Assembly (NCBI GenBank): GCA_030645475.1
Contig: JAUSMA010000069.1
Location: forward strand, 434,001-498,000
Direction of reading: 5' to 3'
Origin: Nitrospirota bacterium
Lineage (GTDB): Bacteria; Nitrospirota; Nitrospiria; Nitrospirales; Nitrospiraceae
Length of the DNA stretch: 64,000 nucleotides
Shown: in pieces, positions 3,206-28,092 of the stretch
Layout of the letters: each line of letters begins with the position of its first letter
Numbering within the stretch: position 1 is the first letter of the stretch
Notes under the pieces: generated by a model
What the model was told of the DNA's origin: nothing
Seen by the model: the letters and a program-made list of their open reading frames with translations, nothing else
Database searches by the model: none
Position numbers and translations under genes: made by a program

Positions 3206-3646
3206 GTGAACTCGTTCGCTGACAAAAAGCAAAACCCAACCACCGAGGAATATTTGGAGGTTGGTCTGAATGAAGTTTTGGATAGGCTAAATAAAAATCC
3301 AAATGGTTCGCAAAGCGAGGAGGCATTCATTAGTGCAGTAATTACTGTGCGCAATGCAATGGTTACCGAAAGGCTGACCAAGTGGCTTGTTTGTTTAACT
3401 GCCGTAGTCGCAATAGCTACCGTGCTGTTAGTAGCCGTTCCTTTTATTGCCCCATCGCTTGAAGCTCAGAAACTGGAGTCAAAGATTGCCGATACTCAAG
3501 CGGCATACAACGGCTTGCAAGTCGAGAGCACAGCATTAAAGCGTGAAGTGCTAGAGCTGAAGCAGGCCTTGTCGGTATTAAATGGCCAAGTTCAAAACAT
3601 AGCTCTGTGCTCAAGCTGGCCTGCGCAAAAGCGCGCAGCCCCTTAG
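3206..3646 (+). CDS. Cassette protein with one membrane span and coiled coil, unknown
   Basis: A 146-residue protein. Residues about 55-80 form one hydrophobic transmembrane segment (LVCLTAVVAIATVLLVAVPF); the following 50 residues have the heptad pattern of a coiled coil (LESKIADTQAAYNGLQVEST). I took GTG 3206, which has AGGAG 11 nt upstream; an in-frame TTG at 3176 adds ten residues but has no ribosome binding site. The stop codon lies in the left half of the next attC-like site, as is usual for cassette genes. Codon use is AT-richer than the neighbours. Function unknown. Confidence 0.65.
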   Translation: MNSFADKKQNPTTEEYLEVGLNEVLDRLNKNPNGSQSEEAFISAVITVRNAMVTERLTKWLVCLTAVVAIATVLLVAVPFIAPSLEAQKLESKIADTQAAYNGLQVESTALKREVLELKQALSVLNGQVQNIALCSSWPAQKRAAP

Positions 3647-4983: not shown

Positions 4984-5262
4984 GTGATCCAATCATTCCG
5001 GCACAAGGGGCTAAGGAAGTTCTTTGAGTCGGGGAGCGCGGCGGGTATTCAACCGCACCACTCCAATCGCCTGCGCATGCTTTTGGCAGCTCTGGATACG
5101 GCTTTGTCCATTGAGGACATGAGCGTTCCAGGATTCAGACTACATCCCTTGAAGGGATCGGAGCGTGGTCGATGGACTGTGTGGGTAAATGGAAGCTGGC
5201 GTTTAACGTTCAAGTTCAAAGACGGACACGCCTACGTCTTGGATTATGAGGACTATCACTAA
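4984..5262 (+). CDS. higB: HigB-type toxin (RelE/ParE superfamily)
   Basis: A 92-residue plasmid-maintenance killer protein. The family marks are the start MIQSFRHKGLRKFFESG, the IEDMSVPGFRLHPLKG segment, the strand WTVWVNGSWRLTFKF and the end VLDYEDYH. HigB toxins are ribosome-dependent mRNA interferases held in check by HigA. The GTG start at 4984 lies directly behind the predicted promoter. The stop overlaps the antitoxin start (TAATG), so the two are translationally coupled. As cassette cargo it would stabilise the array. Confidence 0.9.
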   Translation: MIQSFRHKGLRKFFESGSAAGIQPHHSNRLRMLLAALDTALSIEDMSVPGFRLHPLKGSERGRWTVWVNGSWRLTFKFKDGHAYVLDYEDYH

Positions 5263-5555
5263 TGGCTATGCACAATCCTCCCCATCCTGGCGAGTTCATT
5301 ACCCAGGTCTATCTGGGGCCCAACAATCTTAGCGGCCGCGAACTGGCCGGGAAGCTCGGTGTGGCTGCTTCAACACTGAATCGTATTCTTACGGGTATTA
5401 GCCGTATCAGTCCTGACATGGCGCTACGCCTTTCCAAGGCTCTTGGCCGTTCTCCGGAGAGTTGGCTTGCCATGCAGTCCAACTACGATCTCTGGCAAGC
5501 CAAGCAGCATGTGAAACTTGGCAAGGTTGGGAAAGTTCGGCTAACAGCGGCCTAA
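5262..5555 (+). CDS. higA: HigA-type antitoxin, XRE family
   Basis: A 97-residue helix-turn-helix antitoxin that neutralises HigB and represses the operon. It has the HigA hallmark HPGEFI near the N-terminus, then an XRE helix-turn-helix (LAGKLGVAASTLNRILTG ... MALRLSKALGRSPESW). Translation may begin at ATG 5262 or at the ATG two codons later. The stop TAA (5553-5555) lies inside the R'' core of the following attC site, which is the canonical cassette arrangement. Confidence 0.9.
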   Translation: MAMHNPPHPGEFITQVYLGPNNLSGRELAGKLGVAASTLNRILTGISRISPDMALRLSKALGRSPESWLAMQSNYDLWQAKQHVKLGKVGKVRLTAA

Positions 5556-5640: not shown

Positions 5641-5854
5641 GGCATCAGCTCGACCCGATCCACATGTTACATGTCCCCGCCTGCGGTCCGTCAGCGATCA
5701 TTCATGCCGAATCCGAGAGAGGTTTTCGCCTTCCGGAGCTACTCAACTAAACGTACATAACCATCAGAGCTGGCAGTTTTGGCCTCGGATATGGAGCGAT
5801 GCTGGCTGGGACTTTGATGGATCAGACGAGTGGTACCACTGGCGAGTATTTCCA
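5641..5854 (+). other. Remnant region behind the cassette array, no clear gene
   Basis: No gene with a convincing start is seen. One plus frame stays open across it and encodes an aromatic-rich stretch (SWQFWPRIWSDAGWDFDGSD, then EWYHWRVFP) at about 5768-5855 that looks like the decayed end of a protein, cut by the following repeat. It could be a truncated cassette gene or chance. Confidence 0.3.
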
Positions 5855-6068
5855 CAGGATGCTCAAAAAGACCGTCCAGCAAGGCCGCAGCGAGTGAAGA
5901 TCCGAGGAGGTACAAACCGCACTTCGTGTGGGCCGTTCGCCCTTAGAATGGATCTTGGCGAACGGAAAACCCCCTTTAGCCCTTCCGATCTCCGAGCATT
6001 TTCATTCGGTACGTTGAGGGTCTGAACGAAGCGAGAACGATGCTGGCGTGATTTTTCAGCGTCCTGCG
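5855..6068 (-). repeat. Family A repeat, copy A3 with internal insertion
   Basis: Both family ends are present (CAGGATGCTCAAAAAGACCG at the left, ATTTTTCAGCGTCCTG at the right) in minus orientation, 3 nt beyond the stop codon of the minus-strand kinase gene. The centre has been replaced or extended by about 90 nt that contain their own inverted repeat GCCGTTCGCC/GGCGAACGG. Confidence 0.7.
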
Positions 6069-10361: not shown

Positions 10362-11345
10362 TTACGCATACTTGTGATCTCGGAACCACCGTACTGCCTT
10401 CTCTAATGCCACTTCCGGCGGTGTTTGTGGGATGCCGAGTTCCCGGATCGCCTTGCTGCAATCGTAGTGCATCTTGTACTTGGCCATCTTCACCCCTTCG
10501 AGTGGAATACGCGGTTGCCGGCCCGTGATGTTCGACAGCCATTGGTTTAGGTAGGCCAGCGGCAGGATCGCCAGCCGAGGGAGCTTGATCGTGGGCGCTT
10601 TCACACCGGTCAGGCGGCTCAAGATCTCGAAGACTTCACGCAGCATCAAGTTCTTGTTGCCAAGGATGTAGCGCTCACCGATCCGACCCTTTTCCATCGC
10701 CAGCAGATGGCCGACTGCCACGTCATCGACATCCACGATGTTCATCCCGGTCTCGATATAGGCAGGCATGCGGCCCTTCATGAAATCGACAATCACCTGC
10801 CCCGTGGGAGTCGGTTTTACGTCGCCTGCGCCAACCGGGGCACTAGGGTTGACGATAATGACCGGCAGGCCCGCCTTCGCGAGCGTCAAGACCTCTTGTT
10901 CGGCCAGGTACTTCGACCGTTTGTAGTGGCCGGCCATCTGTTCGAGCGAGACGGGCGTGTCTTCCGTGCCGAGCCCTCCGCCGGGCGGAAGGCCAATGGC
11001 ACCGATGGTGCTGCAGTAGACGATCCGTTCGGTGCCGACGTCGCGGGCCGCTTCCAACAGATTTTTCGTGCCGGTGACGTTCACGTCGTAAAAAATCGAG
11101 GGATCTTTGGCCCAGAGCGCATAGTGCGCCGCCACATGGTAGAGCTGCTGGCAACCGGTGAGGGCCTTTCGCAACGAGGCCTGATCGCGCAGATCGCCCT
11201 CGACCCGCTCGACCGTCAATCCCTGAAGATTCTGGAGGTCGGATTCGGCGCGTGCCAGGATGCGGACGTCGATCTCGCGTTGGACCAGCGCGCGTACGAC
11301 TGCGCCTCCGACAAAGCCGGTCGCGCCTGTGACGAGAGCCTTCAT
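10362..11345 (-). CDS. hpnA: Hopanoid-associated sugar epimerase HpnA
   Basis: A 327-residue NAD-dependent extended SDR protein. The Rossmann motif TGATGFVG is at residues 7-14 and the catalytic YxxxK is in HYKRSKYLAEQ. The segments HVAAHYALWAKDPSIFYDVN, VNPSAPVGAGDVKPTPTG and FMKGRMPAYIETGMNIVDVD are characteristic of HpnA, found with hopanoid genes such as shc and hpnH. It is thought to act on a sugar-type hopanoid headgroup, though the reaction is not established. No squalene-hopene cyclase is present in the window. It is in the same direction as ispA and the CruF-like gene. Confidence 0.88.
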   Translation of the reverse strand: MKALVTGATGFVGGAVVRALVQREIDVRILARAESDLQNLQGLTVERVEGDLRDQASLRKALTGCQQLYHVAAHYALWAKDPSIFYDVNVTGTKNLLEAARDVGTERIVYCSTIGAIGLPPGGGLGTEDTPVSLEQMAGHYKRSKYLAEQEVLTLAKAGLPVIIVNPSAPVGAGDVKPTPTGQVIVDFMKGRMPAYIETGMNIVDVDDVAVGHLLAMEKGRIGERYILGNKNLMLREVFEILSRLTGVKAPTIKLPRLAILPLAYLNQWLSNITGRQPRIPLEGVKMAKYKMHYDCSKAIRELGIPQTPPEVALEKAVRWFRDHKYA

Positions 11346-11351
11346 GATGGG

Positions 11352-11435
11352 GAGCGTATAGCGAATAGCATATAGCTGATAGCAATCAATCTGGGCTCGA
11401 GGTTTGTGCCATCAGCCATACGCTATCAGCTCTTT
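11352..11435. repeat. Degenerate ATAGCTGATAGC-type word repeat
   Basis: Intergenic tract between hpnA and ispA with repeated words such as GCATATAGCTGATAGC and ATCAGCCATACGCTATCAGC. It belongs with the word repeat at 10291-10350. Confidence 0.55.
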
Positions 11436-12324
11436 AGTTCCGCCGGTTGGTGATATACCGCGCGATCTCGCGGAGTGGGTCGGCGGTCGGGCCGAACGAC
11501 GACAGCCGCTCGATCGCCCGGTCGACGCACGTTTCGGCCAGCTTCTTGGCACCGTCCACGCCGTAGAACGTCGGATAGGTTTTCTTGCCTCGTTCGGCGT
11601 CGGTATTCGGGTTCTTGCCGAGTTCCTCGCGTGTGCCGGTCACATTGAGTACGTCGTCGGCAATCTGAAACGCGAGGCCGATGTCTTCCGCATAGCCGGT
11701 CAGATTGGCCAGTTGGGGTTCCGTCGCGCCTGCGGCAATGGCGCCCATGCGCACGGCGGCACGCATCAACATCCCGGTTTTGTGCTTGTGAATGTTTTGC
11801 AACGTCGCGAGGTCGATGTCTTTGTTCTCAGCCTGGATGTCGAAGACCTGGCCGCCGACCATGCCGAGATTGCCTGAGCCGTAGGCCAGCTCCTGAATCA
11901 AACGGACTTGCCGCACGGGATCGCAGCCCTTCATGAGGTCTGGTCGGCTGCAGAGATCGAAAGCCATCGTGAGCAACGCATCGCCTGCCAGGATCGCCAT
12001 TGCATCGCCATAGACCTTGTGATTCGTCGGCTTTCCACGACGGAAGTCATCGTTGTCCATCGCGGGCAGATCGTCGTGGATCAGCGAATAGGTGTGGATG
12101 AATTCCAGCGAGCAGGCCACGGCCATCAAGCCGGGCGGGGTAGTGCCGAGTGCTTCAGCCGCTGCAATCGTCAGGATCGGGCGGATCCGTTTGCCGCCTG
12201 CCATGAGGCTGTACCGCATGCTTTCGTGCAATGTGGTGGGTGGCGTCGTGGCCGGGGGGCTCACCTGATCGAGAAATCGATCGACGTCGATCCGCTTCTG
12301 TTCGAGATAGTCCTTAATGTTCAT
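11434..12324 (-). CDS. ispA: Geranyl/farnesyl diphosphate synthase
   Basis: A 296-residue trans-prenyl diphosphate synthase that condenses IPP with DMAPP and GPP, giving farnesyl diphosphate for hopanoids, carotenoids and undecaprenyl phosphate. The first aspartate-rich motif is DDLPAMDND and the second DDVLNVTG. GGKRIRP binds IPP and HDDL/GDAL segments are in place. I chose ATG 12324 (MNIKDYLEQKRID), a typical IspA N-terminus; an upstream GTG at 12378 would add a non-conserved extension. Upstream lies a family B repeat tract. Confidence 0.9.
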   Translation of the reverse strand: MNIKDYLEQKRIDVDRFLDQVSPPATTPPTTLHESMRYSLMAGGKRIRPILTIAAAEALGTTPPGLMAVACSLEFIHTYSLIHDDLPAMDNDDFRRGKPTNHKVYGDAMAILAGDALLTMAFDLCSRPDLMKGCDPVRQVRLIQELAYGSGNLGMVGGQVFDIQAENKDIDLATLQNIHKHKTGMLMRAAVRMGAIAAGATEPQLANLTGYAEDIGLAFQIADDVLNVTGTREELGKNPNTDAERGKKTYPTFYGVDGAKKLAETCVDRAIERLSSFGPTADPLREIARYITNRRN

Positions 12325-12407
12325 GGGGATAAGGTACGAGTTGTGATGACTGTCGTGGACCGGCGCGGAGAGTACCAAACAGGTCGGAGGCTGTCAAACG
12401 GAGTGGG

Positions 12408-12760
12408 AGGGAGCGGCCAGGTGCCCTTCTTACTCGCAGAACAGCGGAGGGGATGGAAGCTGATGATCTTCTGTGCTCACGCAACGCGCGGCCTCAGAAG
12501 GATGGGAAGGGCAGCCTAGTCGTCCTCCTGCTCGCGGAACGCGCACGCTCGTTCGACGCGCGCAATCGAGGATCGACCAGGCTACCCTTGGAAATGTAAT
12601 GGGGAATTGAAAGAGTGCCTGCAGAGGAAGATCAATCAGCTCCTAATCCCTGAGAGATAACGAGCGAACTTAGATGGAGCATGTATATCGTTCGATGCGC
12701 GCAGTAAGGGCAGCCTTGGCCACTCCCTTAATAAAGAGGTATAGGGAATTAGGAGTCCCT
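12408..12760. repeat. Family B palindromic repeats between ispA and the zinc-finger gene
   Basis: The 600-nt gap 12325-12926 contains at least two family B copies. About 12408-12515 is a hybrid (GGAGCGGCCAGGTGCCCTTC then CACGCAACGCGCGGCCTCAG); about 12502-12595 matches 2850-2975 almost word for word (GGGAAGGGCAGCCTAGTCG, CTGCTCGCGGAACGCGCACG, AATCGAGGATCGACCAGGC). A third partial lies near 12685-12740. No gene is seen in the gap. Confidence 0.7.
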
Positions 12761-12889
12761 CGTCTGGGCTCATGGCATGTCTCGGCATACCAACGTATGG
12801 TCGGGCGAGAAGGGCATTCGCAGTGGGATTAATCACAGACGCTGACCTATGAGGTGAGAAGTTCAGAAGTGCCACGGTTTCTGCGCCCC

Positions 12890-12919
12890 TTGCCTCTCGC
12901 CGTTCGCCTTCGCTATACT
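12890..12919 (+). promoter_or_regulatory. Candidate promoter, leaderless transcript
   Basis: TTGCCT (12890-12895), an 18-nt spacer and TATACT (12914-12919). The expected start site is at about 12926, directly before the ATG at 12927, which has no Shine-Dalgarno. This suggests a leaderless mRNA. Confidence 0.45.
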
Positions 12920-12926
12920 CCGCGGC

Positions 12927-13220
12927 ATGAGTATTCGAAAAGGCGGCGGAGACTGGGAGCCGATGCTGTTGGGGATTGAACCCCGCAACTGCAAGGTCTG
13001 TCATGAAGGGCTCTACCGCAATAAGACGTTTTTGACCGGCGGATGGTCTCGTTGTGCCTCCTGCGACGAGTTCGTTCATTACAGTTGCCTGGCCAGCGGC
13101 AAGGTTTCGTTCCTGAAAGCCCGTCCCCGCCTGTGCAAGGCTTGCCGCGCTGCCCAACAGGGCACTCCCCTTCCTTCGCCTTCGCCGAAGGAAGAGGCTC
13201 CAACGGCCGTCGGGTCGTGA
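12927..13220 (+). CDS. Small C4HC3 (PHD/RING-like) zinc-finger protein
   Basis: A 97-residue protein with eight spaced metal ligands: Cys22, Cys25, Cys43, Cys46, His51, Cys54, Cys70 and Cys73. The order C-x2-C-x17-C-x2-C-x4-H-x2-C-x15-C-x2-C fits the cross-brace pattern of eukaryotic PHD fingers, which is unusual in bacteria. The last 25 residues are a Pro/Ser tail. No other domain is present. The downstream membrane-protein gene begins within the stop codon (GTGA), so the two are translationally coupled and probably act together. Function unknown; a treble-clef structural zinc domain unrelated to PHD is possible. Confidence 0.75.
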   Translation: MSIRKGGGDWEPMLLGIEPRNCKVCHEGLYRNKTFLTGGWSRCASCDEFVHYSCLASGKVSFLKARPRLCKACRAAQQGTPLPSPSPKEEAPTAVGS

Positions 13221-13552
13221 CCCCCAGCTCACAATCAAGCCCGGTGGAAACCCGTCCGGGCTGGCATGTCTTTTTTTCCGAATCGGTCCGGTTCGTTCTC
13301 GCGCCTCTCATTCTCCTCTTCAGTGGATTTTTCACCGCGAACTTCATCGTCAGTGGCGAATATACCTGGCCGCGGACCAGCCGGACATTGGCGTTGACGC
13401 TGACGGTACTGATTCTCTCCCGCGAATTTGTCTACAAAGAACAGCTGTCGCACAACGACTCGCTGGGTCGTGCGCGGTCGGCACTCCTCTATTCCTGTGT
13501 GCTACCTTACATGCTGGGCGTGGTGGTAATGCTCATTCTATGGGCCCTGTAG
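13217..13552 (+). CDS. Small membrane protein coupled to the zinc-finger gene
   Basis: A 111-residue protein with about three transmembrane helices (FVLAPLILLFSGFFTANFIV, TLALTLTVLIL, and a C-terminal LPYMLGVVVMLILWAL). The frame is open further upstream in another gene's territory, but GTG 13217 overlaps the preceding stop as GTGA and gives a sensible cytoplasmic N-terminus. A family A repeat abuts its stop codon. No known family; probably a membrane partner of the zinc-finger protein. Confidence 0.65.
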   Translation: MTPSSQSSPVETRPGWHVFFSESVRFVLAPLILLFSGFFTANFIVSGEYTWPRTSRTLALTLTVLILSREFVYKEQLSHNDSLGRARSALLYSCVLPYMLGVVVMLILWAL

Positions 13553-13678
13553 CCGGATGCTGAAAAAGACCGCCAGCTTCGTTCTCGCCTCGAACGCATC
13601 CTCAACGTAGCCAGGGGCTACGCTTCCGGTGCGTTCATCGGCTGCGGCCTTGCTGGACGGCCTTTTTGAGCATCCGGC
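13553..13678 (+). repeat. Family A repeat, copy A4
   Basis: Starts at the base after the TAG stop of the preceding gene and reads in the same direction. Ends CCGGATGCTGAAAAAGACCG and GGCCTTTTTGAGCATCCGG are complementary over most of their length. The central hairpin is GTAGCC/GGCTAC. Confidence 0.85.
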
Positions 13679-13785
13679 AAGAGGGGTTGTCTGTTATGCC
13701 GCAGGTATAGTCTGATAAAGTTCTGTCGTGTTGAATTGATTTTTCGGCAGCTTGCTAGCAGGCTGCTTTGGCGCGAGGACGGTCT

Positions 13786-14154
13786 ATGGCAGAAATTATC
13801 CGTAGCGGAGCCTTTCTCCAACAATGTTGGTCGGTACATCCGCTCTGTCTGAAGGTCAAGCGCGTTGAGCCGGAGCGCATTGTCGTGCTTACTTGTAGCT
13901 CCTGTCGCATGGTGCATCGGGTGACCACCGATGCGGTGACCAGGCAGGATGCGACAGGGGATTCCACGTCGCCTGTCATCGATCCTGCACAGCCGGACGG
14001 ACTTCCGGCGCTCAAGAACTGTATGGGCACCCATGTGTCCGCTCTATCGGTCCGGGAGATGGATGTGTTTGAGGATGCGCTGTGGGTCCGCTGTGCGGAA
14101 TGCCGAGCGCAGTACGACTTGACGGTCTCCCAGTTCGAAACCCATCAGAAGTAG
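13786..14154 (+). CDS. Conserved unknown with two CxxC pairs
   Basis: A 122-residue soluble protein. CSSC (about residue 37) and CAEC (about residue 105) could form one zinc ribbon across the sequence, with a variable middle region. ATG 13786 is preceded by GAGGAC at a good distance; an in-frame start at 13768 lacks one. It is the first of a co-directional run of unknown genes. No catalytic motif is seen. Confidence 0.65.
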   Translation: MAEIIRSGAFLQQCWSVHPLCLKVKRVEPERIVVLTCSSCRMVHRVTTDAVTRQDATGDSTSPVIDPAQPDGLPALKNCMGTHVSALSVREMDVFEDALWVRCAECRAQYDLTVSQFETHQK

Positions 14155-14188: not shown

Positions 14189-14809
14189 ATGACTATGCCC
14201 TCCCAATTCACAGACGAAGAGACAGCCGTACTGGCCGATCAGCACTTTTTTCGCGCCAAGGCGCACATCATGGCGAAGATGCGTCACTCGCTCTCAGCCA
14301 CCCATGCTCTGTTGAAAGAAGAGGTCTCGTCGACCGCGCTCGTGACCCCGCCGGGTTTCAATCAAGCTACCTGCCAATTTGTGAAGGGAGAGCATCTCGA
14401 ATCCTTTCCCTACCAATACCTGGATTTCCCGAAACACTTTCACGACTCGAATGTCTTTGCTTTTCGGACGCTCTTTTGGTGGGGGCATCATGTCGTCTGT
14501 GCTTTGCTGTTGGAGGGGGAGGGAATCAAGCAACACAAGGCTAGGATCGTCGACCGGTTTCATCAGCTCGCCGGACAGGGGTTGGAGCTGTCCCTGGCGC
14601 CGACCTTGTGGGAATGGAAACGTGGCGAGGGGTATACGTTGCCGATCACCCATGATCGCAAGGCACAGATTGCCGCCGTGTTGGCCGAACGGTCATTCTT
14701 GAAGATTGTCCGTTTCCTGCCGTTCACCGATCTCAGGGTGCAGTCGGGCCACGTGCCGGAATTCAGCCGCGAGACCTTTCGGGCCATCCTGCCGATCGTG
14801 ACCCGCTAG
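14189..14809 (+). CDS. Conserved protein of unknown function
   Basis: A 206-residue soluble protein, rich in His and aromatic residues: DQHFFRAKAHIMAKMRHSLS near the N-terminus and LDFPKHFHDSNVFAFRTLFW in the middle. No signal peptide or transmembrane span. GTG 14186, ATG 14189 and ATG 14195 are alternative starts. I do not recognise a family; the tandem His residues could bind metal, but nothing shows this directly. Confidence 0.6.
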   Translation: MTMPSQFTDEETAVLADQHFFRAKAHIMAKMRHSLSATHALLKEEVSSTALVTPPGFNQATCQFVKGEHLESFPYQYLDFPKHFHDSNVFAFRTLFWWGHHVVCALLLEGEGIKQHKARIVDRFHQLAGQGLELSLAPTLWEWKRGEGYTLPITHDRKAQIAAVLAERSFLKIVRFLPFTDLRVQSGHVPEFSRETFRAILPIVTR

Positions 14810-27961: not shown

Positions 27962-28092
27962 TGCAGGATGCTGAAAAAGTCCGCCAGCTTCGTTCTCACC
28001 GTGAACGCATCCTCAACGTAGCCTAAGGGCTACGCCTCCGGTGCGTTCATCGGCTGCGGCCTTGCTGGATGGCCTTTTTGAGCATCCTGCAG
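27962..28092 (+). repeat. Family A repeat, copy A8 (the exception)
   Basis: The cleanest copy: CTGCAGGATGCTGAAAAAG at the left and CTTTTTGAGCATCCTGCAG at the right, near-perfect inverted ends, with central hairpin GTAGCC/GGCTAC. Unlike most copies it does not follow a gene; it lies in the gap 27807-28272, upstream of the PilZ run, in plus orientation. Nothing else is seen in that gap. Confidence 0.88.

Follow-up and report, generated by a model that had tools for sequence, protein, structure and literature searches.

ZN and MEM form an old, lineage-specific pair of overlapping genes in Nitrospira and its relatives, as sequence comparison establishes. The first gene, ZN, encodes a small protein with eight conserved Cys/His ligands and is preceded by a conserved promoter. 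Across the order to which the analysed DNA belongs, it is paired with the gene for a short membrane protein, MEM, whose start overlaps the stop of ZN. Structure models support a predicted cross-brace fold for ZN and three predicted helices for MEM. Here, the window means the whole stretch of 64,000 nucleotides that we analysed, and positions count from its first letter (Table 1). The host genome measures 3.75 Mb in 71 contigs. Closest to it among named relatives are Nitrospira and Nitrospirota MAGs; N. moscoviensis and N. defluvii also belong to the family.

Table 1. Features of the ZN-MEM locus in the window.
Feature	Position	Strand	Description and basis
-35 element TTGCCT	12890..12895	+	18-bp spacer to the -10 element; TTG kept upstream of homologues
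-10 element TATACT	12914..12919	+	7 nt before the ZN ATG; transcription start would be at or next to the start codon
ZN	12927..13220	+	97-residue protein with eight Cys/His ligands; presumably cytosolic
Eight-ligand region, codons C22 to C73	12990..13145	+	probable binuclear cross-brace treble clef, from ligand invariance and from model and fold comparison
GTGA overlap of ZN stop and MEM start	13217..13220	+	read from the sequence; 4-nt overlaps common across junctions
MEM	13217..13552	+	GTG start; 111-residue membrane protein with three predicted helices

The ligands of ZN are C22-x2-C25-x17-C43-x2-C46-x4-H51-x2-C54-x15-C70-x2-C73. An earlier note on this DNA had read the spacing as C-x2-C-x17-C-x2-C-x4-H-x2-C-x15-C-x2-C, and it is exact in the 97-residue protein. 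None of the eight ligands varies among 31 diverse members, which were picked under 80% identity from 104 aligned ZN sequences and make up our profile A1. These members share 22 invariant columns that include, besides the ligands, G38, G39, W40 and R42 as well as K64, R66, P67 and R68; the invariant Lys and Arg residues of the finger region are R31, R42, K64, R66 and R68. Loci from several sources overlap, and for the counts of close homologues, upstream sequences and junctions they were made distinct by sequence. The eight ligands are kept in 89 of the 90 distinct close homologues, the exception being the second copy in locus L103, which runs into masked sequence. That locus holds two nearby copies of the finger gene, at 3231-3437 and 5001-5288. 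In a distant member, L121, Cys replaces His at the fifth ligand. This replacement fits metal binding, since a metal site would tolerate it. The first loop has 17 residues in the aligned members and the last loop has 15, shortened to 13 in one family (f2).

How widely is ZN distributed? A single-sequence search (E <= 0.01) detected it in 91 of 100 relatives, although for two of them, G010 and G021, the matches are short and marginal. The earlier note had suggested surveying homologues in Nitrospirota. A search with profile A1 found ZN in 96 of the 295 phylum genomes searched, all 96 lie within the window's order, and there was no match among the examined phylum genomes outside that order. Among the genomes listed one by one, a listing that does not extend to 179 of the non-matching genomes, G320 and G085 are the only members of the order without a ZN match, so that the gene was found in 96 of the 98 order genomes listed. 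We also scanned a species-genome collection with short patterns taken from the window's ZN, a search that reaches close relatives only. Nearly all of the best 80 of the 131 relatives it returned are titled Nitrospira, Nitrospiraceae, Nitrospirae or Nitrospirota. One record among these 80 is titled Proteobacteria (L045) and one Nitrosospira (L104); both may be misnamed bins. Judged on sequence, the occurrence of ZN and the invariance of its ligands are more than chance. The window's ZN and MEM match no NCBIfam or Pfam family over its cut-off, and literature searches for bacterial PHD, FYVE and treble-clef proteins and for such a protein in Nitrospira turned up no description of the ZN family.

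The coupling of ZN to a membrane protein, which the earlier note had proposed from the window alone, is supported by comparison of loci across the order. With the window's MEM as the query, MEM followed ZN in 49 of the 66 loci of at least 9 kb. It lies beside ZN, at 31-56% identity, in 19 of 20 loci from other genera and families, and these loci cover all four families of the order in our sample (f1-f4). In the twentieth, L130, which is near a contig end, MEM was seen with family queries. A family profile detected MEM in 68 of the 295 phylum genomes and never without ZN. In each of the 68, both genes share contig and strand and MEM follows the ZN match at a distance of 3-301 nt; this count omits an additional partial ZN match in G256.

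The remaining 28 of the 96 ZN genomes have no MEM match, and all of them belong to one genus-level group (g6). Thus, ZN must do something without MEM in these bacteria. Loci that keep the finger without MEM include L052, L066, L069 and L104. The AMO family is present in 22 of the 28 MEM-less genomes, and we considered whether MEM loss is tied to ammonia oxidation. We dropped this idea: eight AMO genomes keep MEM, six MEM-less genomes have no AMO and, since the MEM-less genomes are all in g6, loss in one or few lineages explains the AMO pattern equally well.

MEM had been described as a three-helix membrane protein. Its structure model, for which the input was 33 of 53 fetched MEM loci plus the window (some rows start inside the gene), supports this description with three long predicted helices (16-46, 51-78 and 83-110; mean pLDDT 67). 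The hydropathy of the window's MEM agrees only in part, as the first and third helices alone pass a simple cut-off. The window protein has no Pfam match over cut-off, and MEM gave no structural match below E 2.

The GTGA overlap between the two genes is present as had been noted, with the stop of ZN and the GTG start of MEM sharing four nucleotides. Overlaps of this type are the rule: a 4-nt stop/start overlap occurs in 82 of 94 distinct ZN-MEM junctions (43 GTGA, 38 ATGA and 1 TTGA). ZN ends in Gly-Ser at 70 of the 94 junctions versus 4 of 28 distinct loci without MEM. This ending may reflect the overlapping MEM start and not protein function; shared ancestry is an alternative explanation.

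Leaderless expression of ZN, also proposed earlier, gains support from comparison of the upstream regions. The -10 element reads TATACT in 114 of 115 distinct 60-nt upstreams and TAAACT in one, and its distance to the ATG is 6-10 nt (7-9 nt in 110). When spacers of 16-19 bp were allowed, TTG of the -35 element was found in all 115 upstreams, at a spacer of 18 bp in 110 and of 17 bp in 5; the placement of both elements is thus kept in 115 of 115. An SD-like 4-mer is present in only 2 of the 115. This count covers loci of f1 and f3. Loci were left out if the match started after residue 4, if there was no ATG there or if less than 60 nt lay upstream, and families f2 and f4 are among those left out. 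We inspected these by eye. The f2 loci L111-L113 have TATACT 9-10 nt before the presumed ATG and the f2 locus L130 has TAGACT instead, while TATACT was not seen upstream of ZN in the three f4 loci. Given the usual discriminator, transcription would start on the ATG or no more than about three bases ahead of it, and the conserved promoter placement makes a leaderless or near-leaderless ZN mRNA probable. The pattern TATACT-N6-7-ATG has one match in the window versus 0.15 expected. A genome-wide leaderless signal was considered and rejected as weak, since TATACT-N5-8-ATG has 34 matches in the window's own genome versus 23 for the reversed pattern, a mild enrichment.

We modelled ZN with AlphaFold2, using 29 of 59 available ZN sequences as input. 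The mean pLDDT of the model is 61, and ten-residue blocks over the ligand region range from 56 to 84. It shows a hairpin formed by 40-42 and 49-51, followed by a short helical turn at 52-54 and a helix at 71-77. C43 and C46 lie in the turn of the hairpin and H51 at the end of its second strand; C54 falls in the helical turn and C73 in the last helix. This placement of hairpin and ligands fits the cross-braced treble-clef layout as described in PMC4678705. According to PMC7614390, zinc sites are interleaved in PHD, RING and FYVE fingers and sequential in LIM.

Each of the best 50 Foldseek rows in the PDB belongs to an entry containing a FYVE, PHD or Rab-effector two-zinc finger; the best has an E-value of 0.058, and none of the 50 reaches E <= 1e-3. 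The top row is the FYVE domain of EEA1, and FYVE entries make up four of the first five rows. A second fold comparison gave melanophilin (Z 5.6, rmsd 7.5 over 69), the BPTF PHD finger (Z 5.0, rmsd 2.9 over 57 residues) and the AL1 PHD finger (Z 4.9, rmsd 2.2 over 51), where a Z near 5 may reflect a common arrangement only. No LIM entry is among the best 50 rows of either comparison. The model is modest, and from it ZN is likely to adopt a cross-brace fold, in which zinc binding would be interleaved.

If the two zinc sites were instead sequential, as in LIM domains or two consecutive knuckles, C22-C46 would hold one zinc and H51-C73 the other, and ZN could still act as a protein-binding adaptor. 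We judge this arrangement unlikely. The loops of ZN resemble those of LIM domains, which have lengths close to 17 and 15, and weak Pfam scores cannot separate the classes, as single scrambled sequences that keep the ligands match zinc-ribbon, RING-like, PHD or C1 profiles. However, four residues between ligands 4 and 5 together with His as ligand 5 are the PHD/RING order and not that of LIM. ZN also differs from LIM in its interleaved-looking predicted layout, with the C43/C46 pair in the hairpin turn and the H51/C54 pair at the far end, and the best PDB rows are entries with cross-brace fingers. We regard ZN as a probable cross-brace treble clef and do not class it with the PHD family.

The earlier note had called ZN a PHD-like finger. 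This label finds partial support, from the PHD ligand order and from a modest model that resembles cross-brace FYVE and PHD fingers; the profile tests do not establish membership of the PHD family. Pfam PHD scores 15.5 bits on the window's ZN versus a curated cut-off of 24 (E 0.018), and C1 (PF00130) scores 16 bits versus a cut-off of 26.5 (E 0.011, the best Pfam E-value). At E <= 1, 30 of the 31 family members match PHD and all 31 match C1. As a control, we searched nine scrambles of ZN that keep only the eight ligands. PHD was listed in four of them (E 0.017, 0.26, 0.57 and 9.2, versus 0.018 for the real protein) and C1 in three (E 2.6e-5 at 24.4 bits, 0.07 and 0.36). On PHD as on C1, the real ZN outscores all but one of the nine scrambles, and there may be a faint profile signal beyond the ligands. 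Yet one scramble equals the PHD score and one exceeds the C1 score, showing that the ligand spacing alone can score that high. The profile scores thus neither prove nor exclude kinship of ZN to PHD fingers, and we dropped PHD membership based on Pfam scores after this control. In the window's own genome, no gene other than ZN matches PHD at E <= 1, and ZN itself stays under the cut-off; the same search in control genomes gave weak matches in 8 of 14 and none over the cut-off.

ZN shares with PHD fingers (PF00628; PHD_4, PF16866) the order and spacing of eight ligands, the His in fifth place and the C-x2-C-x4-H-x2-C core, and it has a weak profile match and a modest structural match to them. 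It differs in that the profile match is under the cut-off and in the invariant Arg68, which stands two residues before ligand 7, where PHD fingers usually have an aromatic residue. C1 gives the best Pfam E-value, yet one scramble scores far better. C1 domains, unlike ZN, have a His ligand at the N terminus, and their second site is permuted. PMC4506424 also states the permutation. Prok-RING and B-box fingers, described in papers that cite Burroughs, Iyer and Aravind (2011), are bacterial two-zinc fingers, as ZN is predicted to be. Prok-RING_1 was not listed for the window's ZN and is over its cut-off in none of 41 genomes. Two-zinc treble clefs are already known in bacteria, and ZN would be a previously undescribed, order-specific one.

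FYVE and Rab-effector (Slp homology) fingers, which lead the fold search, have in common with ZN an RVC-like segment ahead of the last two ligands and an association with membranes. The fifth ligand is His in ZN and Cys in theirs, however, and no match has an E-value below 0.05. Could ZN be a peripheral membrane binder of acidic lipid, FYVE- or C1-like, next to MEM? The lead of EEA1, the membrane protein as partner and Arg68, which creates an R-V-C sequence in most members, all speak for such a role. FYVE domains are characterized by three motifs, WxxD, RRHHCR and RVC. WxxD and RRHHCR are absent from the alignment consensus of the 31 ZN members, and only the RVC-like segment is present. Even there, position 69, after Arg68, is V in 65 of 90 homologues and I or L in the others, and the window's ZN has Leu, which slightly lowers the chances of lipid binding. 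Bacteria are not known to make PI3P. Lipid binding is, in sum, improbable. We also give little credence to a bolder version, in which ZN is a free-standing reader of the FYVE/PHD class that brings a lipid head group or a protein tail to its dedicated MEM, the two being old in the order, leaderless, coupled in translation and not found in the further lineages examined.

The basic residues of the finger region also raise the question of nucleic-acid binding. ZN would then be a regulator whose basic finger binds DNA or RNA, while MEM tethers it or controls its release. The invariant R31, R42, K64, R66 and R68 are consistent with this function, as are weak profile matches, all at E 0.02 or above, to nuclear-receptor DNA-binding domains, to C2H2 fingers and to a ribosomal protein. 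No DNA-binding family is over its curated cut-off for the window's ZN, though, and the top structural matches are fingers that bind proteins or lipids. We consider a nucleic-acid-binding ZN doubtful.

Our preferred reading, to which we give about an even chance, is that ZN is a cytosolic binuclear cross-brace treble clef that acts as the soluble partner of MEM and serves the assembly or stability of a membrane complex. A sigma-70-type promoter would set the transcription start on the ZN start codon or no more than a few bases from it. MEM would be translated by re-initiation at the overlapping stop/start, so that ZN and MEM would be produced together. In the folded finger, ligands 1, 2, 5 and 6 would bind one zinc and ligands 3, 4, 7 and 8 the other. 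MEM would be a short three-helix protein of the inner membrane with ZN as its soluble partner. ZN would use two conserved basic segments, GGWxRC and KxRPRVC, to dock either on the cytosolic face of MEM or on a client held by MEM, and docked ZN would serve the assembly or stability of a membrane protein complex. We infer the zinc binding, the cytosolic place, the physical complex of ZN and MEM and the role in assembly or stability. For this role, a statement in PMC4506424 (citing Burroughs et al. 2011), which ties the prokaryotic B-box to membrane proteins, offers a precedent.

With matches in 96 of the 98 listed order genomes and none elsewhere in the phylum genomes examined, ZN is a promising candidate for a core function specific to this lineage. 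Both nitrite oxidisers and complete ammonia oxidisers occur among Nitrospira and its relatives, and genetic work on these bacteria is difficult. ZN also offers a compact case in which to ask about the tasks of cross-brace fingers in bacteria, outside chromatin and ubiquitin. The group with the finger but no MEM match is a natural experiment on the division of tasks between the two proteins.

We tested ten neighbours of ZN in the window, and MEM is the only one that lies beside ZN in all four families; the gene context thus names no client. The five genes tested further downstream turned up in the window's family only. Divergently upstream of ZN, at 10362-12324, are genes for an FPP synthase (NF045485) and a hopanoid-associated epimerase (HpnA, TIGR03466). 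An FPP synthase and a hopanoid-type epimerase are upstream of ZN in loci of three families, but not in L119 and not in f4. In the f4 loci L114 and L116, the neighbours are oxidoreductase-like and HflK/HflC-like, as read from translations. We dropped a function drawn from the neighbours, because the FPP synthase and epimerase are missing in f4 and MEM is the only all-family neighbour. A mobile or viral origin of ZN was likewise discarded: there was no plasmid match and no relative on a viral contig, and no hit at E 1e-3 came from the viral structure library. The one phage match (E 0.1) falls inside a far longer protein and was taken as chance.

A second small Cys-rich protein is encoded after ZN-MEM, at 13786-14154. 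It has CxxC pairs, and its zinc-ribbon matches are weak and below cut-off. The genes at 14195, 14819 and 15578 are without a Pfam family over cut-off. The order of these four genes is kept within the window's family, and they were not found in the loci of the other families.

Directly after MEM, at 13553-13677, we observed a near-perfect palindrome of 125 nt (RNA fold -68.7 kcal/mol, z -5.9). Rfam gave no match in 12300-14000. The palindrome has 44 matches in its own genome, itself included, at 75-100% identity and most of them nearly full length, and one arm recurs in the window at 28064-28090 (+) and 5854-5880 (-). It looks like a dispersed palindromic repeat of this genome, MITE- or REP-like, and it may also end the ZN-MEM transcript.
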